A stretch of DNA of 64,000 nt from Rhodococcus sp. 06-462-5 (GTDB lineage Bacteria > Actinomycetota > Actinomycetes > Mycobacteriales > Mycobacteriaceae), in the NCBI RefSeq assembly GCF_002258315.1, contig NZ_NOYD01000046.1, forward strand, positions 197,638-261,637, read 5' to 3'. The position numbers were made by a program, and so were the translations under genes. Shown piece by piece: positions 229 through 63,903 of the stretch. The notes below the pieces were generated by a model, which was not told the DNA's origin, made no database searches, and saw only the letters and a program-made list of their open reading frames with translations. The first letter of the stretch is position 1; each line of letters opens with the position of its first letter.

Positions 229-1040
229 GTCGCCGGCCGCTTGCTGGGCAATCCGTACGCGCGGGCCGTGAATTTCTCGAGCACGGTGCGTGGCAACAAC
301 CGCTGGGCGAGAAACACCGCAGGCGCATTGCTGCCGACGGCGTAGATCGGGAGAGTCTTCTTGTCTTCGACCGCTCTGAGCACAGTCTTCGCGACCGTTT
401 CGGCCGAAATGCCCTGTGCCTCCTTGGCGTCGAGCTTCGCGATCACCGTGGTGAAATCGCGCAGGTAGGGCGAATGCGGTCCGCAGTACTTGGTGCGACG
501 GGCGGACAGGCCGGTGGCGATCGAGCCGGGTTCGACTGTGGTGATGTCGATTCCGTACGGTTCGAGCTCGAACCGCGCTGCGGTGCTGAAGCCCTTGATC
601 GCAGCCTTGGTAGCGGCGTACGAGGAACGGTAGGCCAGCGGGAAGCTTGCAAGCATCGAGCCGATGTTGACGATTCTGCCGCGGCCCCGCTCACGCATGG
701 CCGGCAATACGGCCTGGGTCAACTCGATCGCGCCGAACACGTTGAGCTGGAACAGCCGAGTGATTGCCTCGATGGGGAGTTCTTCGATGGGGCCGCACTG
801 GCTTTCGCCTGCGTTGTTGATCAGTACATCGATCGGGGTGTCGCCGAGTCCGTCGACGAACGCGCGAATCGATTGCGGATCCGTCAGGTCCAGATCTCGG
901 TAGTCGACGCCCGGGATCGGGTCGGCCACCTTCGAGCTGTTGCGGCTCGTGCCGATGACGCGGTAGCCGCCAGCGATCAGAATCTCGGCGACGGCCTCGC
1001 CGATCCCGGACGTCGCTCCGGTGACGATTGCAGTGTTCAT
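225..1040 (-). CDS. SDR-family NAD(P)-dependent oxidoreductase
   Basis: 271 residues, a complete classical short-chain dehydrogenase. The cofactor motif TGATSGIG is at 7-14, NAG at 76-78, and the catalytic pair Tyr141/Lys145 lies in SYAATKAA. It probably oxidises an alcohol or reduces a ketone in the aromatic pathway encoded upstream. It is the last gene of a four-gene minus-strand operon; its ATG overlaps the stop of the flavin hydroxylase gene (ATGA at 1037-1040), so translation is probably coupled. The specific substrate is unknown. It could equally act on an acyl intermediate, because the C-terminal half resembles SDRs of broad aliphatic or steroid specificity. Confidence 0.85.
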   Translation of the reverse strand: MNTAIVTGATSGIGEAVAEILIAGGYRVIGTSRNSSKVADPIPGVDYRDLDLTDPQSIRAFVDGLGDTPIDVLINNAGESQCGPIEELPIEAITRLFQLNVFGAIELTQAVLPAMRERGRGRIVNIGSMLASFPLAYRSSYAATKAAIKGFSTAARFELEPYGIDITTVEPGSIATGLSARRTKYCGPHSPYLRDFTTVIAKLDAKEAQGISAETVAKTVLRAVEDKKTLPIYAVGSNAPAVFLAQRLLPRTVLEKFTARAYGLPSKRPAT

Positions 1041-2638: not shown

Positions 2639-3570
2639 CGGTAGGAGACCCGGGTGCGCTGGACCCCCAGATCGAGGGCTCCGTCGGGAGCGGAGCACGT
2701 CAGTTCGAGCACGTCACCGTCCTTCAGAAACGCCGGATTCTTGGCCTGCTTCTTGAAGAAGACCTTCCACTTGACCGACGGCGGAACCAGCGATCCGATC
2801 ATTTCGATCGGCTTGGCGGGGGCCTTCAGTGCGGTGCCTCCCGGCGTGCCGGTGAGCAGTAGATCGCCCGGATCGATCCGCTGGAACTTGCTCAGCGCCT
2901 TCAGCGATTCGACCGGACGGTAGATCATATCGGCGACCGTGCTGTCCTGTCGCACAGTGCCGTTCACCCGCAAGGTCAATGCGAGATCGCCGAACCGGTC
3001 GAACTCGCCGGCCTCGAGCAGTACCAGACGTGGCCCGACCGGAGTGAAGGTGGGATACGACTTACCCTCGTAGAACTGAGTTTTCGGCAACTGGACGTCG
3101 CGGGCCGAGACGTCGTTGGTGAGCACGAGCGCGGCCACGTACTCGGCCACGTTGGACGCGTCGATCTTGGTGCCGACGGTGATGGTCTTGCCGAACACCA
3201 AACCGATCTCGATCTCGTAGTCGAGCAGTTTGACGTGCGCGGGCTTGATCACGTCGTCGGTCGGTCCGCTGATGGAGCCCGAGGTCTTGCGGAAGAACGT
3301 CAGCGGCACCGTCTCGGGGTTCATTCCCGAATCCTTCACATGCGAGACGAAGTTCGTCATGTTCGCCATGATTCGGCAGGGCGCGGTGACCGGCGAGATC
3401 GGCGACAACGTCTCCACGGCAACGACATCGGTGGAGTCTCGCGCCGACTCGATGGCCGCTCGATCGGCGAGTAATTCGGCGGTGGTGGTAGCCGAGGTGT
3501 CGATTCGGGACGCCCCGGCCGGGGTCTCCACCCACCAGGCGTCGGCGGTGCGCAGTACAGCGATGCTCAT
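2635..3570 (-). CDS. Fumarylacetoacetate hydrolase family protein
   Basis: 311 residues. The C-terminal two thirds is the FAH fold, with the metal-binding ExE region (KLLDYEIEIGLVFGK), the following NDVSARDVQ segment and the GTPGGTA loop. Relatives hydrolyse acylpyruvates, hydrate 2-hydroxypenta-2,4-dienoate or decarboxylate oxalocrotonate. All of these are steps after extradiol ring opening, which fits its place between the dioxygenase and the hydroxylase. The start codon overlaps the dioxygenase stop (ATGA, 3567-3570). An upstream in-frame extension is rejected because it would overlap the dioxygenase heavily. Which of the three reactions it performs is open. Confidence 0.85.
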   Translation of the reverse strand: MSIAVLRTADAWWVETPAGASRIDTSATTTAELLADRAAIESARDSTDVVAVETLSPISPVTAPCRIMANMTNFVSHVKDSGMNPETVPLTFFRKTSGSISGPTDDVIKPAHVKLLDYEIEIGLVFGKTITVGTKIDASNVAEYVAALVLTNDVSARDVQLPKTQFYEGKSYPTFTPVGPRLVLLEAGEFDRFGDLALTLRVNGTVRQDSTVADMIYRPVESLKALSKFQRIDPGDLLLTGTPGGTALKAPAKPIEMIGSLVPPSVKWKVFFKKQAKNPAFLKDGDVLELTCSAPDGALDLGVQRTRVSYR

Positions 3571-4700
3571 GAGGAAGCCACTTTCATCAGGCCGCGAAGG
3601 CGTTCGGTGTCGAATTCGTTGTCGGTGCGTAGCGAGGAGATGATCGATTTCAGCTCGTGCAGAGACGCTTTGCTCGGCGCGATCCCGAGGAAGTCCTTGG
3701 ACGCAGGCGGCCCCCACTGAGCCAGGCCGGATGCGGTCATCGGTGCCCAGCCGGGCTCGAGGGAGTTGTCGAACATATCGCCGTCACTGAAATGTTCCAC
3801 CAGGAAACCGTCGGGATCCCGCCAGTAGTCGAAGATCTGGCTGCCCTGGATGTGCCTGCCGATACCCCACGAATGCCGGTACCCGCGCTGGGTCAGGTAC
3901 TCCCCGCCCGCGGCGATGGCATCGAGATCCGACACCTGGTAGGCCGAGTGGACATACCGGTTGGACGGACCGAGAGTCATTGCGAGAGTGTGATGATCGG
4001 CCGGAGTGTTGCCGCGATCGCAGCGGATGAAGCTCATCACCGGACCGCGATCACGCTGACCGTCGTAGTAGAGGAAGTCGCTGACGATCAGCCCGAGATG
4101 ATGCAGGTACCAGTTCAGGTTCTCGAGGTAGCCGGTGCGCTGGAGCACCACGTGTCCCAGACGTTGGACCCGGGCGGGCTGACGTGGTGGACGCTGCGTC
4201 GCGTTCACTCGGTAGCGCGGATCGCCGAAGTTGTAGGTGTGAGCGTCCTGCCCTGGCAGTTCGGGGTGCTCGGTGTAGCCGGACACGACCTGGACAGGCT
4301 GTCCACCGGGATCGGTGAGGGTCACTGAGATTCCGCCGAGGGTGTCGGGCAGACGCTGAATCCGCTGCCCCGTGGCGTCGGCCAAGGTTGCGACATCGGC
4401 GTTGTCGGCAGCAGCGAAGGCCGCGCCGACGAATCGTGTTCGCTTGCCGCGTCGGATGATCACGCACGGTGCGCCCACGTGCGTGCCGCGCAGATGGATC
4501 TCCTCGGGAGTGCGCAACGACACGGTGAATCCGAACGCCACTGCGAACGCCTCGGCCTTCACCAGGTCCGGCTTGCGGAATTCCAGCCACGCGATGTCGC
4601 GGACCTTGATGATCGGATCCTTCGCGCGACCGGGGTGCTCGCCGGTGAGCGCGCCCTGGTCCACGTGCATGTCCTTGTGGCCGTCGACGTCCTGTGCCAT
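3567..4700 (-). CDS. Extradiol (catechol 2,3-type) ring-cleavage dioxygenase, VOC family
   Basis: 377 residues with two vicinal-oxygen-chelate domains (about 30-140 and 178-310) and an extra 60-residue tail. The expected Fe(II) ligands are visible in the second domain: His183 (RLGHVVLQ), His251 (YVHSAYQV) and Glu302 (FLVEHFSD), with a His-His pair at 236-237 where the acid/base His normally lies. It should open a catechol next to its hydroxyls. It is the first gene of the operon, with a strong GAGGGAGG ribosome site just upstream. It is somewhat longer than BphC-type enzymes (about 290-300) because of N- and C-terminal additions, so it may define its own subgroup. Activity on a catechol is well supported; the ring substituent is not. 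Confidence 0.85.
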   Translation of the reverse strand: MAQDVDGHKDMHVDQGALTGEHPGRAKDPIIKVRDIAWLEFRKPDLVKAEAFAVAFGFTVSLRTPEEIHLRGTHVGAPCVIIRRGKRTRFVGAAFAAADNADVATLADATGQRIQRLPDTLGGISVTLTDPGGQPVQVVSGYTEHPELPGQDAHTYNFGDPRYRVNATQRPPRQPARVQRLGHVVLQRTGYLENLNWYLHHLGLIVSDFLYYDGQRDRGPVMSFIRCDRGNTPADHHTLAMTLGPSNRYVHSAYQVSDLDAIAAGGEYLTQRGYRHSWGIGRHIQGSQIFDYWRDPDGFLVEHFSDGDMFDNSLEPGWAPMTASGLAQWGPPASKDFLGIAPSKASLHELKSIISSLRTDNEFDTERLRGLMKVASS

Positions 4701-52667: not shown

Positions 52668-53618
52668 TCAGCTGCGGTTGGTGTCGCGAAAATCCTTGGG
52701 GGTGCAGCCGAAGCGTGCACGGAACGCGCGGCTGAAGTGCGCGGGGTCGGTGAATCCCCACGACGCCGCCAACGCGCCGATGGTGGTGCGAGCATTCTGC
52801 GGCTCGCACAGTGCACGTTTGACGCCGTCGAGTCGCTGCATCCAGATCCACTCACTGGCGGTACACGGCTCACCGGCGAAGGCTCGATGCACCGTGCTCA
52901 ACGACAAGTGCAGCGAGGCAGCCACTTCCGTCACGGTCAGGTCCGGATCACGCAGTCGCGCGGTCATCGCGCGCTTGATCTCGCCGAGTCTCTCGGACGC
53001 CGCATACGGTGCGGGCTTCTCGACTCCGGTGAGTCCGACCAGGCCCGCGACCAGGATGTACTCGACGCTCTGCGACACGGCCTCGGCCGACGCGGTACTC
53101 ATGTCGGCGTCGTCCATGATCGACGAGATCATGCTGACGAGCAGTTTTCCCGCGCCGTGCCGCCCGGACACAGCCCGCGCGGTCAGCGAATTCGTATCCC
53201 GGACGAGCGTCCGTAGCGTTGCTCCGGGGAGCATCAGAACGTACTGAGCGAACGGGTCGTCGAAGCGAAGACTGTAGGGCCGGGTGGTGTCGTAGAGCGC
53301 GAAGTCCCCCGGTTGCAGGACCGCAGTTCGGTCGTCCTGGACCACGAACCCGGTTCCCGACGTCTGAACACTGACCAGGAAGTAGTCGTCACTGGTTCGG
53401 GAGATACCTGCAGGCGTCCGCAGCACGCTCTGCGCCGTCGCCGTCACCCGCGACAATCCGAGAGTCGCAAGCCCGGTCGACTCGATACGCCCGGTGATCG
53501 CAGACGCGTCCTCCGGAATCGTGCACTCGAGATCGACGTACGTCCGGCTCACCGCCGCCGTCCAGAAGTCGACGCTGTCGGCTTGGTCCACCGAATCGGT
53601 GCGCAGCGGATCGCCCAT
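52668..53618 (-). CDS. AraC-family regulator in the nitrilase/aldoxime dehydratase operon
   Basis: 316 residues. N-terminal AraC-ligand-binding-like domain (QDDRTAVLQPGDFALYDTTRP, split at about 115-140) and a C-terminal double HTH (VTEVAASLHLSLSTVHRAF; FTDPAHFSRAFRARFGCTPKDFR). It is the third gene of nitrilase, aldoxime dehydratase, araC, 20 bp after the aldoxime dehydratase stop. It resembles NphR-type activators found with nitrile and aldoxime genes in Rhodococcus. The 31-bp element in front of the neighbouring aldehyde dehydrogenase and GMC genes is a candidate binding site. Confidence 0.84.
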   Translation of the reverse strand: MGDPLRTDSVDQADSVDFWTAAVSRTYVDLECTIPEDASAITGRIESTGLATLGLSRVTATAQSVLRTPAGISRTSDDYFLVSVQTSGTGFVVQDDRTAVLQPGDFALYDTTRPYSLRFDDPFAQYVLMLPGATLRTLVRDTNSLTARAVSGRHGAGKLLVSMISSIMDDADMSTASAEAVSQSVEYILVAGLVGLTGVEKPAPYAASERLGEIKRAMTARLRDPDLTVTEVAASLHLSLSTVHRAFAGEPCTASEWIWMQRLDGVKRALCEPQNARTTIGALAASWGFTDPAHFSRAFRARFGCTPKDFRDTNRS

Positions 53619-53638
53619 GTCAGGTACCTCCTGTCCGG

Positions 53639-54640
53639 TCACAGAGTAGAACGCTCCGCAGCGGTGCGCAGAAGACCTGTGCGGCCGTGGCAACCGAAGT
53701 ACTCGAAGTACTGCTCGTCCGCCGCCGCGACGGTCACCTCGTGATAGAGCCTCAGGGAGGCAGCGGGGCCCATCGTCGACAGATACTTCAGTGCGGCACC
53801 GAAGATGGCCACGTGCGTCGGATGCGACTCGGCCCATGTCTCCAGATCGCTCAGGCTGCGCCACCAACTCATGCCGAACGATTTGTCGGTATCGGTGCCG
53901 TTGTCGGTCACGACGGTCATGTACCGGTTGGCGAAGCAGCCGATGGCGAGTCCGTCGTCGCGGAGAAAGTCCATGCCGGCACGCAACACCGGTTCGACGT
54001 CTCGCAGGTACATCTCCCGTTCGGCCCCGGCGGTATCGGCCCAGTCCTGCCCGGATCGGATGAGGCAGAGGTTCTCCTGCGGCACGATCCTGACTCTGTC
54101 GCCCTCGCGGACGATCTCCGGATCCCCACTGGGAGCAAGCGAGTCGTTCTGCGACAACGGGATTCGATCTCGAACCCCGCCCCAGTAGGCATGCTCGACG
54201 ATGGTCCCGCTGAGTGAATCGGTCAGAGTGGCAACACCTTCCATTCGTCCGGTGGAGGAGAACAGTGTCTCGTAGCGGTCGACGGTCGGTCTGATGATCT
54301 CGACGAAGCGACCTCGGACGCTCGTCCAGTGTCGGCCGACGGTGTCGAACCAGCGGTCGAACGTTGCCACGTCGTCCCAGTAGCCGATGAACACCGTCGT
54401 GTCGGTGCCTTCCTCGTCGGTGTAGCGCGCCCGGTCCGTCCGGGGTGGACCTTCGTCACCCCACGGGGAGGCGTCGGGCATGCCCTGTATTCCGAAGTAG
54501 CCCATGACGACTCGCTCGGTGGACACCGGAAAGCGGGCGACGTACGACGGGAAGGGCGGCTGGTAGCCCTCGGGTGTGCTGCGCGGACACGACCGTGGAA
54601 CGACGAGATGATCGGGTATCGCGGATTCGAGCTCAGACAT
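53639..54640 (-). CDS. oxd: Aldoxime dehydratase (phenylacetaldoxime dehydratase family)
   Basis: 333 residues. The N-terminus (VVPRSCPRSTPEGYQPPFPSY), the WDDVATFDRWF and SFGMSWWRSLSDLETWAESHPTH regions (split) and the C-terminal LRLYHEV...YFEYFGCHGRTGLL are the Oxd family, haem enzymes that dehydrate aldoximes to nitriles without added water. His300 and His318 are candidates for the haem-ligand and catalytic His pair. The start overlaps the nitrilase gene end by 8 bp. The product nitrile is the substrate of that nitrilase, so the two work in series. Confidence 0.9.
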   Translation of the reverse strand: MSELESAIPDHLVVPRSCPRSTPEGYQPPFPSYVARFPVSTERVVMGYFGIQGMPDASPWGDEGPPRTDRARYTDEEGTDTTVFIGYWDDVATFDRWFDTVGRHWTSVRGRFVEIIRPTVDRYETLFSSTGRMEGVATLTDSLSGTIVEHAYWGGVRDRIPLSQNDSLAPSGDPEIVREGDRVRIVPQENLCLIRSGQDWADTAGAEREMYLRDVEPVLRAGMDFLRDDGLAIGCFANRYMTVVTDNGTDTDKSFGMSWWRSLSDLETWAESHPTHVAIFGAALKYLSTMGPAASLRLYHEVTVAAADEQYFEYFGCHGRTGLLRTAAERSTL

Positions 54641-55688
54641 GGGCGGCGTCCTCGTCGTGAGCGAGCTGCTCGGTGATCTCGAGACGTACCTCGGCGGCGT
54701 CCTCGGTGAAGTCGTAGCGCGCGTTCGCGACTGGCTGCGCACCCGACACGACGCGGTCGCCGGGAGTCTTGTCGAGCCACAGTCTCGTCACGTCCGGACG
54801 CGAGTAGTGGCCGGCCGGGTCGGCTGCGGCCTTGGCGATCGAGATCAGGCTGGTGTCGATGTCGGCGAACACCAGGCCTTCGGCGTCGGGTGCGAGCGGT
54901 TCGTGCATCAATTGGCCGTCGGGAGCGTAGATGCGGGCATGACCGCCGCCCGCGGTGAGCATCGCGCGCTTGGCGTCGTCGGTGCACATGATGTCGATCA
55001 TCTCGGGTGAGACCGTCGCGCACGGGCTGATGACGAAACAGCCGCCTTCGACGGCGTAGATGCGGCTGGCGGCCGTGTTGACCTCGGGCCCGAGGGCGTA
55101 GGCCGCCCCGGTGTAGAGCGAGAAGCTGGGCCACGCTCCGATGTGAACCTGCTCGTTCTGGGCGTACATTGCGTACTTCGACAGCGGCTGCAGGTGCTCC
55201 CAGCAGCACAGTGCGCCGACGCGTCCGAGGTCCGTGTCGTACACCGACAGATCGGATCCGTCGCCCTCGCCGTAGACGGTGCGCTCGACGTGAGTCGGCT
55301 TGAGTTTGCGACGCATCGCGACGGTCTTGCCTTCCGCGTCGATGATCCACTGGGCGATGTAGAGGCTGGCCTTGTAACGCTCGCTCAGACCCATCACGAC
55401 CATGATGTGGTTGTCCTTGGCGGCCTGCACAATTCGAGCTGCCTGCGGTGTCCCGTACTCGAGCGAGTTGTCGAAATAGCGCTGCGTGAACTGAAATCCC
55501 CATGCGGGTGCGTCGAGCCAGATGTACCAGGGGTAGCCGGGCAGGTAGGTCTCGGGAAACGCGACGAGCTCGGCTCCGGCGCGAGCTGCGTCCTCGATCA
55601 GGCCGATCGCCTTGTCGATCGAGGCGTCGAGATCGAGAAAGATCGGTGCGGCCTGGACTGCTGCGGCGCGGAACTGATGGTGGTTCAT
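54633..55688 (-). CDS. Nitrilase (aryl-acetonitrilase type)
   Basis: 351 residues. The Glu-Lys-Cys triad is clear: Glu46 (VAFPETYLPGYPWY), Lys130 (RKLKPTHVERTVYGEG) and Cys162 (GALCCWEHLQPL), against 48/131/165 in the Rhodococcus J1 enzyme. It hydrolyses a nitrile directly to acid and ammonia. The ATG at 55688 gives the standard N-terminus (RAAAVQAAPIFLDL). First gene of nitrilase, aldoxime dehydratase, araC; it faces the aldehyde dehydrogenase gene across a 294-bp region with the 31-bp element. Aryl-acetonitrile preference is inferred from context. Confidence 0.92.
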   Translation of the reverse strand: MNHHQFRAAAVQAAPIFLDLDASIDKAIGLIEDAARAGAELVAFPETYLPGYPWYIWLDAPAWGFQFTQRYFDNSLEYGTPQAARIVQAAKDNHIMVVMGLSERYKASLYIAQWIIDAEGKTVAMRRKLKPTHVERTVYGEGDGSDLSVYDTDLGRVGALCCWEHLQPLSKYAMYAQNEQVHIGAWPSFSLYTGAAYALGPEVNTAASRIYAVEGGCFVISPCATVSPEMIDIMCTDDAKRAMLTAGGGHARIYAPDGQLMHEPLAPDAEGLVFADIDTSLISIAKAAADPAGHYSRPDVTRLWLDKTPGDRVVSGAQPVANARYDFTEDAAEVRLEITEQLAHDEDAAHV

Positions 55689-55858
55689 GGAAGGGCCTTT
55701 CGTTGGGGAGTGCCCCAGTTTTGCCTGCTGAAAGGCCGTTCGATGGCCTCGATGTGTCGGAAAAATTGACTCTCCGTCGCACGGCCGGATGCCGAAACAC
55801 TGCGGTAACCGGGGCCTCGTGTGTGGACACACGATCGTCACGCGGGGAGGTCGGCCGG

Positions 55859-55889
55859 CGGTGCGCATCTATCGCACAATGTGTGCGCG
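55859..55889. promoter_or_regulatory. 31-bp shared promoter element, copy 1 (aldehyde dehydrogenase)
   Basis: CGGTGCGCATCT, seven variable bases, then AATGTGTGCGCG. The 24 fixed bases are identical to copy 2 at 62283-62313. Inside copy 1 there is also a perfect inverted repeat CGCACA-ATG-TGTGCG (55873-55887). It lies 93 bp before the aldehyde dehydrogenase start and 170 bp before the nitrilase start, so it could serve both. Rest of this 294-bp gap (55689-55982): no gene seen. Confidence 0.75.
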
Positions 55890-55982
55890 ATCACACAAGA
55901 CCTTCGTGCCGCTGCGGGCGCAATCTGGGAACTGCACACGCCACAGGTGCCGTGATCGGCACCCGAGAAGGAGCTTTCGAAT

Positions 55983-57467
55983 ATGACCGCAGTACAGGAA
56001 TCTGCCGCACCGTCGTTGCCGACCGGCACCGCCACCGAGCTCTACATCGCAGGGCAGTGGCGCGGTGCATCCGACGGAGGCACCTTCACCGACCTCAACC
56101 CCACCACGGAGCAGCCACTGGCCGAGGTTGCCGCCGCCACGGCGTCGGATGTGGATGCTGCGGTGCGTGCGGCTCGCGCCCAGCTCGGTGGCGAATGGGG
56201 TGCCACGCCCGGAGCGGTCCGCGGAAAGCTGCTCAATCGAATTGCCGATCTGATCGAGCGCGACGGGGATCTGTTGGCGCGGCTGGAGGCTCTCGACGTC
56301 GGCAAGCCGGTGGGTCAGCCGGCGATGCTCGACATCCCCAATGCTGCAGCCACTTTCCGACACTTCGCCGGGTGGGCCGACAAGATCACCGGTAGCTCCA
56401 TCCCCACTGCGGGTTACTTCGGTCAGCCGACGCACTCGTACACCGTTCGCGAGCCCGTCGGCGTGATCGGCATGATCGTTCCGTGGAACACCCCGTTGAT
56501 GATCGCCGGGTGGAAGCTCGCACCTGCGCTGGCTGCGGGAAACACCGTGGTGATCAAGCCGCCGGAGGACGCCCCGTTGTCGATCCTGCATCTGGCTCGT
56601 CTGATCGACGAGGCGGGCGTACCTGCCGGAGTCGTCAATGTCCTTCCGGGACTGGGAGAAGTGACCGGCGACGCGTTGGTCGGTCATCCTGACGTCGACA
56701 AGATCAGCTTCACCGGCAGCCCGCGGGTCGGCAAGCTCATCGCCAAGAAGGCTGCCGACACGTTCAAGCGGACGACGCTCGAGCTCGGCGGCAAGTCTCC
56801 GCAGATCATCCTCGAGGACGCGGATCTCGAGGCAGCGATCAACGGAACCGCGATGGGACTGTTCTTCAATCAGGGCCAGGTGTGTGCGGCTGGTACCCGG
56901 GTGCTGGTGCATCGCTCGCTGTACTCACAGGTGGTCGACGGTTTGGCCGCTGCGGCGTCGGCTCAGGTACTGGGCGACCCGTTCGATCCGTCGACGACGA
57001 TGGGGGCACTGGTCAACGCGAAGCAGCGCGACAGCGTGCTGGGGTACATCCAGGCCGGACGCGACGGCGGTGCCCGAGTGGCGGCCGGAGGTGGCCGCCC
57101 CGACGGGGCCGGATACTTCGTCGAGCCGACCATCTTCGCCGACGCCGACAACGGCATGAAGATCGCCCAGGAGGAGATCTTCGGGCCCGTCGGCACGGTC
57201 ATTCCGTTCGACACCGCAGACGAAGCGATCGGTATCGCCAACGACACCGTGTACGGATTGGCCGCGAGCATCTGGACCCGCGACGTGTCGAGGGCGCACA
57301 CCTTGGCTGCGCAGGTCCGATCCGGCGCGGTCTGGGTGAACGGTTGGGCTGCAATCGATCCCGCACTCCCGTGGGGCGGAATGAAGACCAGTGGCACGGG
57401 CCGTGAACTCGGATGGGCCGGCATCGAGGCCAACACCGAGGAGAAGGTAGTCACGATCGTCCTGTAG
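55983..57467 (+). CDS. Aldehyde dehydrogenase (phenylacetaldehyde dehydrogenase-like)
   Basis: 494 residues. Cofactor region IVPWNTPLMIAGWKLAPALAAG (split at about 165-185), catalytic Glu in TLELGGKSPQ, nucleophile Cys in FNQGQVCAAGTR and C-terminal GGMKTSGTGRELG. It would oxidise the aldehyde released by the copper amine oxidase to the acid. AAGGAG lies 9 bp before the ATG. It shares a promoter element with the GMC oxidoreductase and is divergent from the nitrilase operon. A 15-bp-stem terminator follows. Substrate is inferred from neighbours. Confidence 0.87.
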   Translation: MTAVQESAAPSLPTGTATELYIAGQWRGASDGGTFTDLNPTTEQPLAEVAAATASDVDAAVRAARAQLGGEWGATPGAVRGKLLNRIADLIERDGDLLARLEALDVGKPVGQPAMLDIPNAAATFRHFAGWADKITGSSIPTAGYFGQPTHSYTVREPVGVIGMIVPWNTPLMIAGWKLAPALAAGNTVVIKPPEDAPLSILHLARLIDEAGVPAGVVNVLPGLGEVTGDALVGHPDVDKISFTGSPRVGKLIAKKAADTFKRTTLELGGKSPQIILEDADLEAAINGTAMGLFFNQGQVCAAGTRVLVHRSLYSQVVDGLAAAASAQVLGDPFDPSTTMGALVNAKQRDSVLGYIQAGRDGGARVAAGGGRPDGAGYFVEPTIFADADNGMKIAQEEIFGPVGTVIPFDTADEAIGIANDTVYGLAASIWTRDVSRAHTLAAQVRSGAVWVNGWAAIDPALPWGGMKTSGTGRELGWAGIEANTEEKVVTIVL

Positions 57468-57475
57468 AGCTCACG

Positions 57476-57541
57476 CAGGTGAGCGGGAGTGGAGCCTGCG
57501 GAACGACCCAGGTGAGCGGGAGTGGAGCCTGCGGAACGACC
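57476..57541. repeat. Two perfect 33-bp tandem repeats
   Basis: The unit beginning CAGGTGAGCGGGAG and ending GGAACGACC occurs twice with no change (57476-57508, 57509-57541). A third start (CAGGTGAGCGG, 57542-57552) becomes the left arm of the terminator hairpin. The array lies directly downstream of the aldehyde dehydrogenase stop. It looks like duplication of the terminator's own arm. Confidence 0.85.
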
Positions 57542-57589
57542 CAGGTGAGCGGAACTTCGTAGCAGGGGTCGAGTTTCCGCTCACCTGGG
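57540..57589. terminator. 15-bp-stem terminator after the aldehyde dehydrogenase gene
   Basis: CCCAGGTGAGCGGAA (57540-57554) pairs perfectly with TTCCGCTCACCTGGG (57575-57589) around a 20-base loop. There is no T-run, as is common in high-GC actinobacteria. The rest of this gap, 57590-57742, holds only the TetR promoter and its palindrome. Confidence 0.78.
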
Positions 57590-57646
57590 GTAACGCGGTG
57601 TTTACGGAAGGACACGCGATTCGTAACGAGCAGGTCGCAAGATTTA

Positions 57647-57664
57647 GTTCAACGGACGTAGAAC
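57647..57664. promoter_or_regulatory. TetR operator copy 1 (own promoter)
   Basis: GTTCAACGGACGTAGAAC, a near-palindrome (GTTC-A-ACG against CGT-A-GAAC). It matches the copy at 58368-58384 as TTCAACG-N3-GTAGAAC (14 fixed bases identical). It lies 79 bp before the TetR start. Confidence 0.75.
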
Positions 57665-57742
57665 AACGGCCGAACGGATCGGAAGGCGATGATGACGATG
57701 CCCGAACCCTAGGTTCCAGCAGGGAGCCGCTACCGTAGGGCT

Positions 57743-58324
57743 GTGCCGAAGCTCGTGGATCACGACGAACGCCGCCGCGCGATCACCGCGGCAACCTGGC
57801 GTCTGATCGCTGCCAAGGGGATCGATGCCGCGAACATGCGGGACATCGCGACCGAGGCGGGATACACGAACGGCGCGCTGAGCCACTACTTCGCGGGCAA
57901 GGACGAGATTCTCCGAACTGCATTCGAGCACGTCTTCGAGGCAACGAACCGCCGTATCGACGAAGCACTGGGCGACGCAACGGGATTCGATGCGCTCCGC
58001 ATCTTCTGCCGAGAAGTGATGCCGACGACCGAAGAGACTCTGCTCGAGGCGAGAATCGCAGTCTCGCTGTGGCAGCGCGCAATGTACGACGGGCACATGG
58101 ACGACACCAACCATCGATCCCTGGTGTCGTGGCGGGCGCGGATGGCTGAGTTTCTCGAGCAGGCCCGCGCAGAAGGCGACGCCGGCGACTTCGATGTCGA
58201 TCTCGCCGTCGAAATGTTGCTCAACATGATGATGGGTATGCAGATCCTCGGCGTGCTCACCCCCGACGACACCACTGCCGACCGGCAGTTCGAGATGCTC
58301 GACCGGTTCATAGCTCAGCTGTAA
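57743..58324 (+). CDS. TetR-family regulator of the amine oxidase operon
   Basis: 193 residues, GTG start. HTH at about 28-48 (NMRDIATEAGYTNGALSHYF) and a BetI/PuuR-like C-terminal domain (LLNMMMGMQILGVLTPDD). It precedes the copper amine oxidase gene by 84 bp on the same strand. The same operator-like palindrome sits before both genes, so it likely represses itself and the amine oxidase/permease operon until an amine or its aldehyde is present. Confidence 0.85.
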   Translation: MPKLVDHDERRRAITAATWRLIAAKGIDAANMRDIATEAGYTNGALSHYFAGKDEILRTAFEHVFEATNRRIDEALGDATGFDALRIFCREVMPTTEETLLEARIAVSLWQRAMYDGHMDDTNHRSLVSWRARMAEFLEQARAEGDAGDFDVDLAVEMLLNMMMGMQILGVLTPDDTTADRQFEMLDRFIAQL

Positions 58325-58367
58325 CCACCTGTGTGCAGGCGACTCATGGTCCCGCATGTCTTCATTA

Positions 58368-58384
58368 TTCAACGTCTGTAGAAC
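58368..58384. promoter_or_regulatory. TetR operator copy 2 (amine oxidase promoter)
   Basis: TTCAACGTCTGTAGAAC, identical to copy 1 at 57648-57664 in all 14 positions outside the three central bases. It lies 24 bp before the amine oxidase ATG, so a bound repressor would block transcription or early elongation. Confidence 0.75.
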
Positions 58385-58408
58385 CAACACCGACCTCGAG
58401 GAATATCC

Positions 58409-60355
58409 ATGCCAACTCTCACGCCACACGCAATCGACCACGCGTTGTCGTTGCCCACCGAAGACGAGATCGCACAGGTTCGAGACATCGTCGACGCCGC
58501 CGGATTCGTCACGGCTGCAACGCGGTTCGTCTACCTCGGACTGGACGAACCGGAGAAGTCCGAGTTGTACGTCGCCGAACCGACCACCCGACGCACCTTC
58601 CGGGTGCTGTTGCACGACATCTCGACACCCGATGCCGTCGACCTTCTCGTCTCCCTCGACGAGCGTCAGGTGATCGGCTCCACCCGCCTCGATGCGATCC
58701 GTGACGGCCAGATGCCGGTGCTCGACGAGGAATTCGAGCTCGTCGAGAAGGTGCTCTCCACCGATCCGGACTGGCTCGCCGCGCTGGCCGCGCGCGGACT
58801 GGACGTAGCCGACGTTCGAGTGGCACCCCTGTCGGCAGGTGTGTTCGACTACCCGGGCGAGCACGGTCGACGCATACTGCGCGGCTTGGCTTTTCGGCAA
58901 GACTACCCCGCCGATCACGCGTGGGCCCATCCTATCGACGGGCTGGTCGCGTTCGTGGACGTGATGAATTGGACGGTGGACAAGGTTGTCGACCTGGGTG
59001 TGGTTCCCATCCCGGAGGAATCGGGAAACTTCGACGATTCGGCCGTCACCGGCCCGCTGCGCACCACGCAGAAGCCGATCGAGATCACTCAACCCGAGGG
59101 GCCCAGCTTCACGGTTCGAGGCAATCGCGTCGACTGGGAGAAGTGGTCCTTCCGAGTCGGCTTCGATGTGCGTGAGGGCCTGGTGCTGCACCAGATCGGG
59201 TTCGAGGACGGGGGTACCGTCCGTCCGATCATCCACCGCGCTTCGATCGCCGAAATGGTTGTGCCCTATGGTGATCCGTCCCCGGTGCGGTCGTGGCAGA
59301 ACTACTTCGACACCGGTGAGTACCTGGTGGGACGGTTCGCGAACTCACTCGAACTCGGGTGCGACTGCGTCGGGGACATCACGTACTTCGACGCCGTGAT
59401 CGCCGACGAATTCGGCAACCCGAAAACGCTGACGAACGCCGTGTGCATGCACGAGGAGGATTTCGGGGTGCTGTGGAAGCACACCGATCTGTGGTCGGGA
59501 TCGCAGGAGACCCGGCGTCAGCGTCGACTCGTGATCTCCTTCTTCACCACCATCGGCAACTACGACTACGGATTCTTCTGGTACCTCTACCTCGACGGCA
59601 CCATCGAATTCGAGGTCAAGGCAACCGGAATCGTGTTCACTTCCGGGCATCCCGGTGGTGACTATCCGTACGCGACGCAGATCGCCCCCGGGCTCGGTGC
59701 GCCGTGCCATCAGCACCTGTTCAGTGCGCGACTCGACATGATGGTCGACGGCATCGGCAACTCCGTCGAGGAGATCGAGACCCGCCGAGTACCGATGGGC
59801 CCGGACAACCTGCACGGCAACGCCTTTGCTCTGCAACACACGCCGCTGGCCACGGAGTCCGAGGCGCAACGCGTCGCCGACGGCACAGTGGGGCGCGTCT
59901 GGCACGTCACCAATCCCACCTCGTTGAGCCGACTCGGAAAGCCCGTCGGATACACACTGCACCCCGAGGGGCAGCCGCTGCTGTTGGCCGACGACAACTC
60001 GTCGATCGCGCGACGCGCCACGTTCGCCACCAAGCATCTCTGGGTGACGCAGTTCGACCGAAGCGAACGGTATGCCGCAGGCGATTTCGTCAACCAGCAC
60101 CACGGGGGAGCTGGCCTGCCGGCATTCGTCGCCTCGAACCGTAGCCTCGTCGACGAGGACATCGTGCTGTGGCACACCTTCGGGCTGACCCACTTCCCGA
60201 GGCCCGAGGATTGGCCGATCATGCCGGTGGACTACACCGGCTTCAAACTCAAGCCCGCGGGGTTCTTCGATCGCAACCCCACCCTCGACGTGCCCCGCTC
60301 GAGTTCTTCGCACTGCGCCGCATCGAGCTGCGAGAGCGGTGAGCAGAATGTCTGA
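58409..60355 (+). CDS. Copper-containing amine oxidase (phenylethylamine oxidase type)
   Basis: 648 residues. The residues of Arthrobacter phenylethylamine oxidase are all present with a constant +3 offset: topaquinone-precursor Tyr385 ([11 protein letters not shown]), catalytic base Asp301 ([11 protein letters not shown]) and copper ligands His434, His436 ([11 protein letters not shown]) and His595 ([12 protein letters not shown]). It turns a primary amine into aldehyde, ammonia and H2O2. No signal peptide, so it is cytoplasmic. CGAGGAAT precedes the ATG. Its stop lies inside the start of the permease gene. The aldehyde would go to the dehydrogenase at 55983. Confidence 0.93.
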
Positions 60356-61769
60356 GCGCCAATCTAATTCGACGGCCGGCGCGCTACGTGGTTCCATCGG
60401 CGTAGTCGGGATCGTGTTCCTGGTCATCGCTGCTGCAGCGCCACTGACCGCCATCGGTGGGGCCTTACCGGTCATGATCGCGACCGGCAACGGAGCGGGC
60501 GCACCGCTCGCCTACATCGTCGCCGCGATCGTTCTGCTGATCTTCAGCGTCGGCTACGCGGCCATGAGCCGACACATGGTCGACACCGGCGCGTTCTACG
60601 CCTATGTGGAGAAGGGGCTCGGGAGAACCATGGGCCTCGGCGCTGCGGGTCTGGCGCTGCTGACGTACACCGCCATTCAGGCGGGCATCTACGGACTCGC
60701 CGCATCGACCGTCGACAGCCTCGTCGTGAAGTACGGCGGCCCCGACCTGCCGTGGTGGGTGTGGGCACTCGGTCTCGTCGCGATCGTGGCGCTGCTCGGC
60801 TACCGCAGCATCGATCTCGGTGCCAAGGTCCTCGGGGTACTGCTGGTGCTCGAGATCGGCATCATCGTAATCCTGTCGGTCGCGGTGTTCGCCAAGGGTG
60901 GTGCCGCGGGCATCGACGTCGAATCGTTCACTCCCTCGGCCTTCTTCAGCGGATCCCCGGGAATCGCCCTGATGTTCGCCATCGCGTCGTTCATCGGCTT
61001 CGAGGCCACCGCGATCTACGGTGAGGAGGCGCGTAACCCCACGCGGACCGTTCCGATCGCGACCTACGCCGCTGTTGTCACCATCGGACTGGTGTACGCG
61101 GTATCGAGTTGGGCCGTCGTACTCGCTTTCGGCAGTGCATCCGTCGCGCAGGCCGCTGCCGACGACACGGCGGGATTGACGTTCGCCGCTGCCGCCCAGT
61201 ACCTGGGCCCGATGTCGGCGGACATCATGGAGATCATGTTGGTCACCAGTCTCTTCGCCGCCCTTCTCGCGTTCCACAACGCAATCGGACGGTACGTCTT
61301 CGCGCTCGCTCGCAAAGGTGTCGCCCCGTCGATGCTGGCGCGCACGCACTCTCGGCACGGCTCCCCGCACATGGGGTCACTGTTCCAAACAGCCTCCGCA
61401 GCAGTGGTTCTCGTGGTCTTCGCGGCAGCAGGCGCAGACCCGGTGCTGGAACTGTTCACCTGGATGTCCGGGCTGGCCACCGTGAGCATTCTGGTCCTGA
61501 TGATCCTCACCGGCGGTGCCATCATCGCCTTCTTCCGTCGATCGACCGTGGATACGCGTACTTGGCACACCGTTGTCGCCCCGGTACTCGGAACCGTGGG
61601 TCTGGTGGCGATCCTCGGTCTTGTGCTGGACAACTTCACACTGCTCATCGGCGGTTCGGGGGTGCTCGCCGCGCTGCTGTTGATCGTCGTCGCGACGTTC
61701 TTCGCGGCGGGGATCCTCGTAGCTCGGCTGACCGGATCTCGCGCCCTCGATCTCGAGCCGACGGGCTGA
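60348..61769 (+). CDS. APC-family amino acid/amine permease
   Basis: 473 residues, about 12 membrane segments, with the APC N-terminal pattern [21 protein letters not shown] and [20 protein letters not shown] at segment 6. The ATG at 60348 overlaps the amine oxidase stop, so the two are co-translated. It most likely imports the amine that the oxidase degrades. A GTG 9 bp upstream is a possible alternative start. Confidence 0.87.
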
Positions 61770-61774
61770 CACCG

Positions 61775-62257
61775 ATGGTCATGACGGTGCTCATGGCGCT
61801 GGGTGCGGTGGGTGCTGTCCTGCCCCTGATCGGACGCCGCAACCACACGGGGCGGGTCCGGTGGGCTCACCTGTGCATGGGCACCGTCATGGCCGCCATG
61901 GTGGTCCTCGGCACGGACCCATCCGTGGCGCTGATTTCGATCCTTGCTCTCGTCGCGGCTGCCGTCCATGTCACCGCCGACCGGCCGAACAGAACTCGAT
62001 CGATTCCGTGCGCGGTGGACCTGACGTGCATGGCCGTGCTGCTGATGATGCTGCTGCCCATGCACTCCCACGCGGATCCGCAGGCGTCGACGCGGCACCG
62101 GCACGGAGTCGAGGCGGATCCAAGGATCATCGCCGCGCTGCTCCTGGTGGGGTGGATGGCCGTGACGATCCACCTGCTGCGCACGAACCCGCCCGGACGA
62201 CGAGTCACCGCAGGTTCCGCACTGATGATCCTGGGAATGGCACCGATGGTCTACTGA
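61775..62257 (+). CDS. Small Met/His-rich membrane protein (DUF5134-like)
   Basis: 160 residues, four to five membrane segments, 5 bp after the permease stop. It is unusually rich in Met and His for its size: CMAVLLMMLLPMHSHADP at about 85-102, then HRH at 108-110, plus Met-rich first and last helices. The layout suggests DUF5134-type proteins of unknown role. Being in the operon of a copper enzyme, it could handle copper; that is an inference from composition and position only. Confidence 0.65.
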   Translation: MVMTVLMALGAVGAVLPLIGRRNHTGRVRWAHLCMGTVMAAMVVLGTDPSVALISILALVAAAVHVTADRPNRTRSIPCAVDLTCMAVLLMMLLPMHSHADPQASTRHRHGVEADPRIIAALLLVGWMAVTIHLLRTNPPGRRVTAGSALMILGMAPMVY

Positions 62258-62282
62258 CGGTCGCTCCTGCAGGCTCCGCTCC

Positions 62283-62313
62283 CGGTGCGCATCTGACCCA
62301 GAATGTGTGCGCG
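62283..62313. promoter_or_regulatory. 31-bp shared promoter element, copy 2 (GMC oxidoreductase)
   Basis: CGGTGCGCATCT, seven bases, AATGTGTGCGCG, with all 24 fixed bases equal to copy 1 at 55859-55889. It lies 69 bp before the GMC start, in the 125-bp gap after the small membrane protein gene. It implies a common regulator, plausibly the AraC protein at 52668. Confidence 0.75.
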
Positions 62314-62382
62314 CAGCGACATGTTTGTGCTCGCAGATTCGGCCACTGTTGTGTCGACGGTCACAACAGAAAGAGGCAGCGC

Positions 62383-63903
62383 ATGTCGACGGATTACATC
62401 GTAGTGGGAGCAGGATCAGCAGGAAGCGTCATCGCTCGCCGACTGCTCGATGCCGGGCACACCGTGCATGTCATCGAAGCAGGACCGGTGGACACCGATC
62501 CGGCGATCCACTCACCCCAGGGCTGGCCGACGCTGCTGGGCGGATCGCAGGACTGGGGACTGTTCACCACCCCGCAGAAGCACGCCAACGATCGGCGGAT
62601 CTTCTGGCCACGCGGGCGCGTACTCGGCGGCAGCTCGTCGCTCAACGGAATGATCTACGTCCGAGGACATTCCAGCGATTACGACGCGTGGGCGTCCGCA
62701 ACCGGAGATGCCGGGTGGGCCTGGGAGAACGTATTGCCACTGTTCAAGCGCTCGGAGTCATACGAGCTCGGTGCCAACGAGTTCCACGGCGGCGACGGGC
62801 CGCTGCCGGTGTCGATCATGGGTACCCCGCACCCCTTGGCGGCTGCCTTCGTCGATGCGGCGGTCGAGCACGGGCACAAACTGATCGACGACTTCAACGC
62901 CGACGAGATGCTGGGCGCGGGCTACAACCACACCACCACCCGCGACGGCGAACGGATGAGTGCGTGGAAGAGCTTCGTCGGCCCGGTGATCGACCATCAT
63001 GATTTGACCGTCACCACTGGCGCACTCGTGCACAAGGTGGTGCTCGAGAACGGCCGAGCGGTGGGAATCGAGTACAGCCGCGGGGGTTCCGAGGTGGAGC
63101 GATCGTTCGCGGATCACGAGGTGATCCTCTGCGGTGGAGCTCTCGGATCACCGAAGACGTTGCTGCTCAGTGGAATCGGACCCGCCGTGCACTTGGCCGA
63201 ACTTGGGATCGACACGGTCGTGGATCTGCCGGGTGTCGGCGAGAACCTGCACGACCATTTGCTGCTCAGCAACATCTACGAATCGCTCGAACCCCTCGCA
63301 GCCGGCACCAACAACCTGCTCGAGGCGCAGCTGTATGCCCGCAGTACCGGATGGGCAGGCGCTGCACCGGATCTGCAGCCACTGTTCATGCACATTCCGT
63401 ACCCGGCCGACGGATACCCGGTGCCCGAGAACGGCTACACCATCGCGCCCGGCATCGTCGCTCCGCGTTCGCGTGGCACTCTCCGGTTGGCATCCTCGGA
63501 TCCGAGCGAACTGCCGCTGGCGGACCCGAACATCCTGGCCGATCCGTACGACCTCGAAGCGATGGTCGACGCCGTGGAGATCTGCCGCGAGATCGGAGCA
63601 TCCGACGCGTTCGCGCCGTGGCGCAAGGCCGAGGTGGTTCCGGGACCGAGTGCGCGTACCCGCGACGACCTACGGGCCTACGTTCGACAGACCGCCGGTA
63701 CGTACCACCATCAGGTCGGCACCTGCAAGATGGGAGCGGACTCGGACGCCGATGCCGTTGTCGGAGCCGACCTTCGGGTCCGCGGCGTCGAGGGACTGCG
63801 GGTCGCGGACGCGTCGATCATGCCCACGGTGCCATCGGGCAACACCAACGCGCCGTCCATCATGGTCGGTGAGCGGGCCTCGGATCTGATCCTGGGAAGC
63901 TAG
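62383..63903 (+). CDS. GMC-family FAD oxidoreductase (choline dehydrogenase-like)
   Basis: 506 residues. FAD motif GAGSAG at 9-14, the GMC signatures GRVLGGSSSLNGMIYVRG and GGALGSPKTLLLSGIG, and a C-terminal active site with His443 (YHHQVGTCKMG) and GNTNAPSIMVGERA. It oxidises an alcohol to an aldehyde. With the shared promoter element, an aryl-ethanol feeding the same aldehyde dehydrogenase is plausible. AAAGAGG precedes the ATG. Alternatives include a choline- or polyethylene-glycol-dehydrogenase-like role. Confidence 0.87.
   Translation: MSTDYIVVGAGSAGSVIARRLLDAGHTVHVIEAGPVDTDPAIHSPQGWPTLLGGSQDWGLFTTPQKHANDRRIFWPRGRVLGGSSSLNGMIYVRGHSSDYDAWASATGDAGWAWENVLPLFKRSESYELGANEFHGGDGPLPVSIMGTPHPLAAAFVDAAVEHGHKLIDDFNADEMLGAGYNHTTTRDGERMSAWKSFVGPVIDHHDLTVTTGALVHKVVLENGRAVGIEYSRGGSEVERSFADHEVILCGGALGSPKTLLLSGIGPAVHLAELGIDTVVDLPGVGENLHDHLLLSNIYESLEPLAAGTNNLLEAQLYARSTGWAGAAPDLQPLFMHIPYPADGYPVPENGYTIAPGIVAPRSRGTLRLASSDPSELPLADPNILADPYDLEAMVDAVEICREIGASDAFAPWRKAEVVPGPSARTRDDLRAYVRQTAGTYHHQVGTCKMGADSDADAVVGADLRVRGVEGLRVADASIMPTVPSGNTNAPSIMVGERASDLILGS

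Follow-up and report, generated by a model that had tools for sequence, protein, structure and literature searches.

A modular gene island beside the paa operon of Rhodococcoides as a probable upper pathway into phenylacetate

INTRODUCTION

Several peripheral catabolic routes converge on phenylacetate and lead from there into the paa core, an organization known as the phenylacetyl-CoA catabolon. The term itself occurs in PMC5874493. Two gene arrangements that are already known resemble parts of the locus described here: (i) a copper amine oxidase (CAO) and an aldehyde dehydrogenase (ALDH) beside paa genes, as in Escherichia coli; and (ii) an aldoxime dehydratase (Oxd), a nitrilase and an AraC-type regulator, as in Bacillus and Bradyrhizobium.

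For the first arrangement, the annotation of E. coli K-12 places feaR-feaB-tynA next to paaZABCDEFGHIJK, so that an AraC regulator, a phenylacetaldehyde dehydrogenase and a CAO lie beside paa genes, as they do here. The 27 kb of that locus that we looked at contain no annotated aldoxime dehydratase, nitrilase or alcohol-oxidising gene and, unlike the E. coli enzyme, the CAO described here is accompanied by its own TetR regulator and permease.

For the second, AraC, nitrilase and Oxd genes occur together in Bacillus sp. OxB-1 and Bradyrhizobium sp. LTSPM299 (PMC8955678), and the Bacillus strain converts phenylacetaldoxime to phenylacetic acid (PMC4342420; PMC8955678). The parts of these two sources cited here describe no tie of either cluster to an amine oxidase, an ALDH or paa genes. 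A haem Oxd is likewise clustered with nitrile-converting enzymes in R. globerulus A-4, R. erythropolis N-771 and P. chlororaphis B23; there the partners are a nitrile hydratase and an amidase, whereas here the partner is a nitrilase (PMC8955678, in the part cited).

The locus that we describe differs from the phenylacetyl-CoA catabolon in that an aldoxime-nitrile branch lies at the same place as the branches for amine and aldehyde, and an operator is shared. The portions of the open-access literature that were searched contain no case of Oxd-nitrilase and CAO-ALDH joined at one paa locus, and nothing in them contradicts an earlier note on this DNA, whose author knew of no published cluster in which Oxd and nitrilase are combined with a TPQ amine oxidase.

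RESULTS

The window is the whole stretch of DNA analysed, 64,000 nucleotides from Rhodococcus sp. 06-462-5 (contig NZ_NOYD01000046.1). A five-function gene set with regulators and a permease occupies positions 52668-63903. Every gene that the earlier note had named is present, with an open frame and an assignment from Pfam and NCBIfam; a DUF5134 gene between the permease and GMC genes was absent from that note. In the window, the AraC, Oxd and nitrilase genes are on the minus strand, and the ALDH, TetR, CAO, APC permease, DUF5134 and GMC genes are on the plus strand. The features are as follows:

52668..53618, minus strand: AraC-family regulator, FeaR-like, of the aldoxime-nitrile module (Pfam AraC_binding_2, HTH_18)
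53639..54640, minus strand: aldoxime dehydratase (haem), Oxd (PF13816)
54633..55688, minus strand: nitrilase, arylacetonitrilase-like (PF00795)
55861..55888, plus strand: AraC-type operator, GTGCGCAT-N13-TGTGCGC, in the divergent nitrilase/ALDH promoter region
55983..57467, plus strand: phenylacetaldehyde dehydrogenase, StyD-like, ALDH (NF045736, 959.6 bits, cut-off 800)
57648..57663, plus strand: TetR operator, TTCAACGGACGTAGAA, upstream of tetR
57743..58324, plus strand: TetR-family regulator of the amine module (PF00440, PF13977)
58368..58383, plus strand: TetR operator, TTCAACGTCTGTAGAA, upstream of CAO
58409..60355, plus strand: copper/TPQ amine oxidase, phenylethylamine-oxidase-like, CAO (PF01179)
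60339..61769, plus strand: APC-family permease (PF00324/PF13520)
61775..62257, plus strand: DUF5134 membrane protein (PF17197, 31.4 bits, cut-off 29)
62285..62312, plus strand: second AraC-type operator, GTGCGCAT-N13-TGTGCGC, 71 bp upstream of GMC
62383..63903, plus strand: GMC-family FAD oxidoreductase, proposed to oxidise 2-phenylethanol (PF00732/PF05199)

In an alignment to 3w08, Oxd retains R178, S219, H299 and H320, which we take to be the haem-ligand and catalytic residues. Its score against NF050090, the model of OxdA-type aliphatic aldoxime dehydratases, is 330.8 bits, under the equivalog cut-off of 600. The nitrilase gene and the start of oxd overlap by 8 bases, and the Glu-Lys-Cys motifs of the nitrilase, whose roles we assume, align with those of its best solved relative, NitA 6zby. 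The top NCBIfam match of the Oxd-linked AraC is FeaR (NF007243), at 155.2 bits and under the equivalog cut-off of 199. Wherever a genome of the genus has an Oxd of at least 80% identity (11 genomes), the nitrilase lies beside Oxd and araC adjoins oxd. By its residues and adjacency, the set of Oxd, nitrilase and AraC genes is a predicted aldoxime-nitrile pathway cluster, in which Oxd would dehydrate phenylacetaldoxime to phenylacetonitrile and the nitrilase would hydrolyse the nitrile to phenylacetate.

In the amine module, CAO scores 923.2 bits against PRK11504 (cut-off 651), and its closest solved relatives are phenylethylamine oxidases; the best of these, 1rjo, matches at 912.8 bits over residues 15-640, almost the whole length. 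The alignment to 1rjo shows an N-Y-D motif, presumably the site of the TPQ tyrosine, together with histidines that we take to be the copper ligands and the substrate-channel residues. The start of the permease gene overlaps the end of the CAO gene, and the permease probably imports the amine, which would be 2-phenylethylamine, for conversion by CAO to phenylacetaldehyde. Related CAO genes in G010 and G013 are located at other sites, next to an ALDH of only 34-36% identity, and the amine module is therefore able to stand without the island ALDH. The CAO locus of G013 has no TetR operator at up to two mismatches.

Phenylacetaldehyde would in turn be converted to phenylacetate by the StyD-like ALDH. 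Among 20 matches to NF045736 in its own genome this protein alone exceeds the cut-off, and none of 14 control genomes has a match above it. Beginning about 3 kb beyond the end of the window are paaK and the remaining phenylacetate-degradation (paa) operon. PaaK, PaaA-E and PaaZ score above cut-off there, a PaaH-like protein is under the PaaH cut-off, and the enoyl-CoA hydratase genes were named by eye. PaaK would turn phenylacetate into phenylacetyl-CoA, and PaaABCDE, PaaZ and others would break the latter down. Two further AraC proteins are under the FeaR cut-off of 199, one next to paaK at 162.9 bits and one downstream of GMC at 104.7 bits.

A sample of 37 genomes was used to follow the island through the genus (Rhodococcoides). 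ALDH is found in 20, all within the 21 that have paaK, and oxd is present in G004 although the ORF finder missed it. The tree left out G034, which has paaK and no ALDH. The earlier note had looked to conserved synteny; this holds for the link between ALDH and paaK, which share one island in 20 of 20 ALDH-bearing genomes, whereas the surroundings are modular, and only 5 of the 37 genomes (G000, G009, G023, G024, G026) carry the complete five-function set. The 20 islands include nitrilase-Oxd-AraC in 11, TetR-CAO in 11, GMC in 12 and an alcohol dehydrogenase in 8. Because the nitrilase-Oxd adjacency and the company of ALDH and paaK are without exception, the grouping exceeds chance. Amidase-isochorismatase-permease genes in four sister genomes were considered as a phenylacetamide branch and dropped as phenylacetate feeders, because NCBIfam points to allophanate and biuret hydrolases: the G019 amidase exceeds the cut-off for allophanate hydrolase, and the other enzyme is closest to biuret hydrolase (268.9 bits, under the cut-off of 370). 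The G019 permease, which has no Pfam or NCBIfam match, was named by eye.

The AraC-type operator has exactly two exact sites in the 5.76-Mb genome, in the nitrilase/ALDH gap and before GMC, and each of the 20 islands has it, with at most one mismatch, ahead of aldh or adh; three of 24 exact sites lie outside islands. It would govern ALDH, from a region common to the divergent nitrilase promoter, and GMC; the amine module is without it. Islands that lack the AraC of the Oxd module still keep the operator (e.g., G003, G008, G011, G022 and G030); this AraC was therefore rejected as its sole user, and the AraC beside paaK most likely binds it. The TetR operator pattern has three sites in the genome, two of them in the island; it precedes CAO in all 11 CAO-bearing islands (one with a single mismatch), and would govern tetR and CAO. 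A palindrome of the PaaR type stands before paaA, a paaR-like gene and paaZ, and may control these. One-mismatch matches to this motif within the window number 15 where 9.5 would be expected, and 5 of 100 shuffles reach 15; direct PaaR control of the island is not supported, because the matches in the island region (53170, 59216 and 63049) all sit inside genes. In one relative, a second copy of the AraC-type operator flanks the aldoxime-nitrile module.

At E 1e-20, Oxd is found in 37 of 401 genomes of a family sample, 25 of them outside the genus; surroundings were read for the two of these 25 with full-length Oxd (54-61% identity). At E 1e-60, a 396-genome phylum sample has no Oxd besides that of the strain itself. 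A plasmid search gave 21 records, all below 60% identity. Among 22 related loci outside the genus, several of them short, paaK is near Oxd in only one, and no paaK was found near Oxd in L191 or L192. By eye, the regions upstream of the nitrilase at six distant loci have no obvious site in common. The direct repeat of GTGCGC is absent from all six; of the 22 loci, a single further one (L118) contains it, away from the nit promoter.

DISCUSSION

The island is very probably a modular upper pathway through which phenylalanine-derived C6-C2 compounds are converted to phenylacetate for the adjoining paa operon; the substrates and the direction of flux are what we infer from the genes. There is good support for the earlier note's proposal that the functions converge on a single aryl-acetic acid, and the StyD-like ALDH above its cut-off and the adjoining paa operon identify the acid as phenylacetate.

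The alcohol step has another possible reading, namely that GMC acts on some other alcohol, choline-like or pyridoxine-like, and lies outside phenylacetate supply, in which case the rest of the pathway may still hold. GMC resembles broad families (choline dehydrogenase, MftG and pyridoxine 4-oxidase) and is under every NCBIfam cut-off listed, as that reading would have it. We nevertheless consider it unlikely, given that GMC and ALDH have an operator in common, that GMC comes immediately after ALDH in G003 and G016, and that in a sister clade an NDMA-dependent alcohol dehydrogenase stands beside the same ALDH in place of GMC. The two enzymes were exchanged only once on the tree; the exchange is therefore weak evidence for the alcohol step, and their mutual exclusivity was rejected as repeated evidence. 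GMC, or in the sister species the alcohol dehydrogenase, probably makes phenylacetaldehyde from 2-phenylethanol.

It is also conceivable, and in our judgement very unlikely, that two unrelated catabolic units meet at an insertion hot spot, one for the detoxification of plant oximes or for nitrogen supply and one for unrelated primary amines, with paa nearby only as the insertion site. The modules do turn over independently (at least seven changes on the tree for oxd-nit and three for CAO), they have separate regulators and operators, and in 4 of the 20 islands the same neighbourhood holds biuret/allophanate genes, which do not feed phenylacetate. Set against this are the ALDH operator common to the nitrilase promoter region, the kinship of CAO with phenylethylamine oxidases, and Nonomuraea, where nit-oxd adjoins paaK independently. 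The least probable reading is an auxin route, as the earlier note had envisaged, with indole-3-acetate made from host indole-3-acetaldoxime, indole-3-acetonitrile or tryptamine, or with phenylacetate released as an auxin. It draws on several characterised Oxds that accept indole-3-acetaldoxime (PMC8955678, in the part cited), on phenylacetate being itself an auxin (PMC9867223, likewise) and on named relatives that include Rhodococcoides fascians and strain Leaf278. As the main role it lacks support: the product would be consumed by PaaK and the ring-degrading enzymes alongside, ALDH is restricted to paaK genomes, and fascians is described as having no significant levels of nitrile-, amide- or tryptamine-route intermediates (PMC8955678, in the part cited). 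A side activity on indole substrates is possible.

For a bacterium that has plant-dwelling strains among its relatives, the upper-pathway reading thus describes a feeding pathway rather than a plant-hormone factory, because the genes for phenylacetate breakdown adjoin the island. More tentatively, and with rather more doubt than confidence, the paa locus could be an exchange island for plant volatiles and defence compounds that derive from phenylalanine. Its core, which oxidises aldehydes and bears the operator, would then take up interchangeable aldoxime-nitrile, amine, alcohol and possibly N-acyl amine modules, and the promoter itself would be the point at which these modules pass from one species to another. 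If so, consumption of phenylacetaldoxime, phenylacetonitrile and phenylacetate would tap and dampen the phenylacetate auxin and the defence chemistry of the host.

Finally, we note what the island means for these actinomycetes. It unites two known designs, amine oxidase-ALDH-paa and Oxd-nitrilase, and gives nitrilase-linked Oxd clusters a concrete, testable role in the supply of phenylacetate catabolism. An operator pattern with just two sites in the genome predicts a small regulon. The island suggests that a whole range of C6-C2 compounds derived from phenylalanine can be used as food, and it reverses the auxin idea: rather than making an auxin, these bacteria may take one away together with its precursors.

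Gene content of the cluster

Nine genes lie within 52668-63903 of the window. The gene list of the earlier note proved correct, its sole omission being a DUF5134 gene:

minus strand, nitrilase
minus strand, aldoxime dehydratase (Oxd), its gene and that of the nitrilase overlapping by 8 bases
52668-53618, minus strand, AraC-family regulator, co-directional with the two preceding genes
plus strand, StyD-like aldehyde dehydrogenase (ALDH), first of six genes in this order
plus strand, TetR-family regulator
plus strand, copper/TPQ amine oxidase (CAO), its gene overlapping that of the permease
plus strand, APC permease
61775-62257, plus strand, DUF5134 membrane protein
plus strand, GMC-family FAD oxidoreductase (GMC)

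ALDH scored 959.6 bits against the NCBIfam model of the Rhodococcus-type phenylacetaldehyde dehydrogenase StyD (cut-off 800). As a control, the model had 20 matches in the same genome, of which only the window ALDH exceeded the cut-off; 13 of 14 control genomes gave some match and none gave one above it. The best solved relatives of CAO are phenylethylamine oxidases (1rjo, 912.8 bits, residues 15-640). By alignment, CAO equals 1rjo at the N-Y-D tyrosine, the copper histidines, the NYFD stretch, which holds the gate tyrosine and the aspartate base, and the residues equivalent to F105, L137, W168 and Y302. Alignment to 3w08 shows that Oxd retains R178, S219, H299 and H320, which we take to be haem-ligand and catalytic residues; it reached 330.8 bits against the OxdA equivalog model (cut-off 600), and the OxdA identity was therefore dropped. 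NitA (6zby) is the best solved relative of the nitrilase, and GMC fell under all NCBIfam cut-offs listed. Another apparent catabolic set, judged by eye, comprises an FAD monooxygenase and its neighbours at the window start (1037-4700).

The adjoining paa operon

About 3 kb beyond the window end lies paaK, the first gene of a phenylacetate-degradation (paa) operon. The stretch after the window (L100, on G000:C58) reads, in order:

second AraC, acyl-CoA dehydrogenase, third AraC (araC3), paaK
paaE, paaD, paaC, paaB, paaA, two enoyl-CoA hydratase-like genes
paaH-like gene, thiolase, TetR-like regulator, paaZ

The enoyl-CoA hydratase-like genes and the TetR-like regulator were named by eye. In an NCBIfam scan, 7 of 10 proteins exceeded their own cut-offs (PaaK, PaaE, PaaD, PaaC, PaaB, PaaA and PaaZ); the thiolase passed the general thiolase cut-off only, the PaaH-like protein passed no listed cut-off, and the TetR-like regulator had no match within the 1e-40 limit. 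Phenylacetate, the predicted common product of the cluster, is the substrate of PaaK. A comparable neighbourhood exists in E. coli K-12, where feaR, feaB and tynA lie beside paa.

Distribution in the genus

We use island for ALDH and the surrounding gene modules near paaK. Among 37 genus genomes, 20 carry ALDH (E up to 1e-200) and 21 carry paaK (E up to 1e-60). All 20 with ALDH are among these 21, and the 16 that lack paaK also lack ALDH. G034 has paaK and no island. Synteny in relatives, a check that the earlier note named, is conserved for ALDH and paaK, which share an island in 20/20 genomes, and the surrounding modules vary. Around ALDH, oxd-nit-araC is present in 11/20 islands and TetR-CAO in 11/20, with permease and DUF5134 in 10 of the latter; for family assignment, one representative of each kind of gene was scanned. 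GMC (12/20) and an NDMA-dependent alcohol dehydrogenase (ADH, 8/20) are mutually exclusive, one always being there. Biuret/allophanate-type amidase-isochorismatase genes occur in 4/20 islands and a histone-deacetylase-fold hydrolase in 1/20. One island (G016) carries oxd-nit-ALDH-GMC without the CAO module.

Oxd of at least 80% identity occurs in 11/37 genomes, in all 11 with the nitrilase beside it. Of eight close loci, two carry the name Rhodococcoides (fascians A44A and kyotonense), probably the name of this genus, and six the name Rhodococcus, including strain Leaf278. G019 has a 45% identical Oxd elsewhere in the genome (L092:8968-14386), on a different contig from paaK; its neighbours, by eye a CobW/P47K protein, nitrile hydratase subunits and an amidase, are of the classical Rhodococcus type.

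Several further genes accompany the islands. DUF5134 also lies by an unlinked CAO of G010 (L091), and a weak relative lies near an ALDH/ADH pair at L191. A 569-aa Amidohydro_3 protein stands between DUF5134 and GMC in G009 (L157:4896-6605), with same-length genes in that gap in G015 and G023. The Oxd-module slot is filled in G003 by a 2-oxoadipate dioxygenase/decarboxylase-like (HGLS) protein (L153:12106-13491), and in G011 and G030 by genes of similar length. Near the islands of G010, G019 and G036 are genes which by eye resemble those of a branched-chain 2-oxo acid dehydrogenase complex (L163:332-5028); they could provide a further entry, from phenylpyruvate to phenylacetyl-CoA.

Predicted operators

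Direct repeats 21-22 bases apart are the expectation for an AraC-family site. The pattern GTGCGCAT-N12/13-TGTGCGC, in which GTGCGC repeats are so spaced, matches the 5.76-Mb genome at exactly two places, 55861 and 62285 of the window; a reversed control matched nowhere. Of the 37 genomes, 18 had exact matches, 24 in total, of which 21 were inside islands. The other three were in G011, G031 and G034; those at G011:C133:167-193 and G034:C7:26458-26484 are alike (GTGCGCATCCAT...TAGGTGTGCGC) and perhaps point to a further gene controlled by a related regulator.

With at most one mismatch, and with gene starts set by alignment to the window proteins, the operator stands 92-95 bases 5′ of aldh or 72-73 bases 5′ of adh in 20/20 islands. 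A copy lies 71-80 bases 5′ of GMC in the 10 islands where the CAO module parts ALDH from GMC, two of these copies carrying two mismatches; it is absent in G003 and G016, where GMC directly follows ALDH. Because the operator persists where the Oxd-linked AraC is absent, the AraC beside paaK is its likeliest binder.

A second motif, TTCAACG-N3-GTAGAA, stands 5′ of tetR and of CAO; two of its three genomic matches are in the island. With at most one mismatch it was found in 11/11 CAO-bearing islands and in 0/10 other island loci scanned. The motif is also present at the unlinked CAO of G010; a search allowing up to two mismatches did not find it at that of G013. In G019 the motif, as a one-mismatch TetR operator, also precedes the deacetylase-fold hydrolase (L163:12846-13952, between ALDH and tetR) as well as CAO, which ties the hydrolase to the amine branch; it is possibly an N-acyl-phenylethylamine deacetylase. 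PaaR-like palindromes lie 5′ of paaA, the paaR-like gene and paaZ; the intergenic sequences of the island showed none.

Module exchange

A tree of the 20 genomes, built from paaK, araC3 and ALDH, required at least seven changes for oxd-nit, three for CAO, three for the biuret genes and, despite the mutual exclusion, one for GMC/ADH; these counts are approximate because 6 of 17 inner branches were drawn open. G023 is 99.7% identical to the window in oxd (DNA), compared with 91.0% in ALDH and 86.8% in an esterase, which points to recent exchange of the oxd module between species. At its far side in G023 this module has the ALDH operator once more (23-base identical core), adjoining a short-chain-dehydrogenase-like gene. 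In G022 the module is absent, and a gene that shares its start and length with that short-chain-dehydrogenase-like gene stands, with the operator, directly by ALDH. G015 retains araC and nitrilase as fragments only, beside ALDH and CAO (L160:6555-6839), a decayed aldoxime-nitrile module.

Outside the genus

Twenty-two further Oxd loci came from named genomes (L109-L130), 12 with a nitrilase nearby. At one of the 22, from Nonomuraea lactucae (L115), araC-nit-oxd-paaK form a co-directional series; paaK was not found in the other 21 at E 1e-10 within the sequence stretches, some of which are short. In a family sample of 401 genomes, 37 had an Oxd (E 1e-20). Of these, 25 lie outside the genus, and two of the 25 (L191, L192; Oxd 54-61% identical) have a nitrilase and no paa genes nearby. 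The link to paa is thus strong in the genus and occasional elsewhere.

Discussion

An AraC-like regulator belongs to the Oxd-nitrilase cluster of Bacillus OxB-1, whose two enzymes take phenylacetaldoxime to phenylacetic acid (PMC4342420). Excerpts of PMC8955678 place nitrilase-type oxd clusters in Bacillus and Bradyrhizobium and nitrile-hydratase-type ones in Rhodococcus and Pseudomonas, and call the role of the R. fascians oxd genes poorly understood; aldoxime dehydratase and phenylacetyl-CoA are treated apart in excerpts of PMC8230428. Excerpts of PMC8416521, PMC5855665 and PMC10978784 hold no joint aldoxime dehydratase/amine oxidase cluster, and a term search for nitriles, aldoximes and amine oxidase found nothing in the main text of a 2026 paa pathway survey (PMC13186573). 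Since the open-access papers searched, outside which most subscription journals lie, gave no such cluster, we regard the meeting of aldoxime-nitrile, amine and alcohol branches, with a common operator, at a single paa locus as a new variation on known designs.

The earlier note had the five functions converge on an aryl-acetic acid such as phenylacetate or indole-3-acetate, perhaps as an auxin route. Auxin formation may occur as a side effect, but it is not the best account. We suggest instead that phenylacetaldoxime would pass through phenylacetonitrile to phenylacetate, and 2-phenylethylamine through phenylacetaldehyde to the same acid, with 2-phenylethanol probably entering at the aldehyde via GMC; PaaK and the paa enzymes would then degrade the acid. 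Gene identity, adjacency, co-distribution, operators and module exchange are seen in the sequences themselves, and the substrates, the flux and the protein that binds the operator are predictions.

The cluster is real and coherent, and is largely explained as phenylacetate catabolism. Phenylacetaldoxime, phenylacetonitrile, 2-phenylethylamine and 2-phenylethanol are among the phenylalanine-derived products of plants, and such predicted substrates fit the plant-dwelling habit of the strain's relatives.
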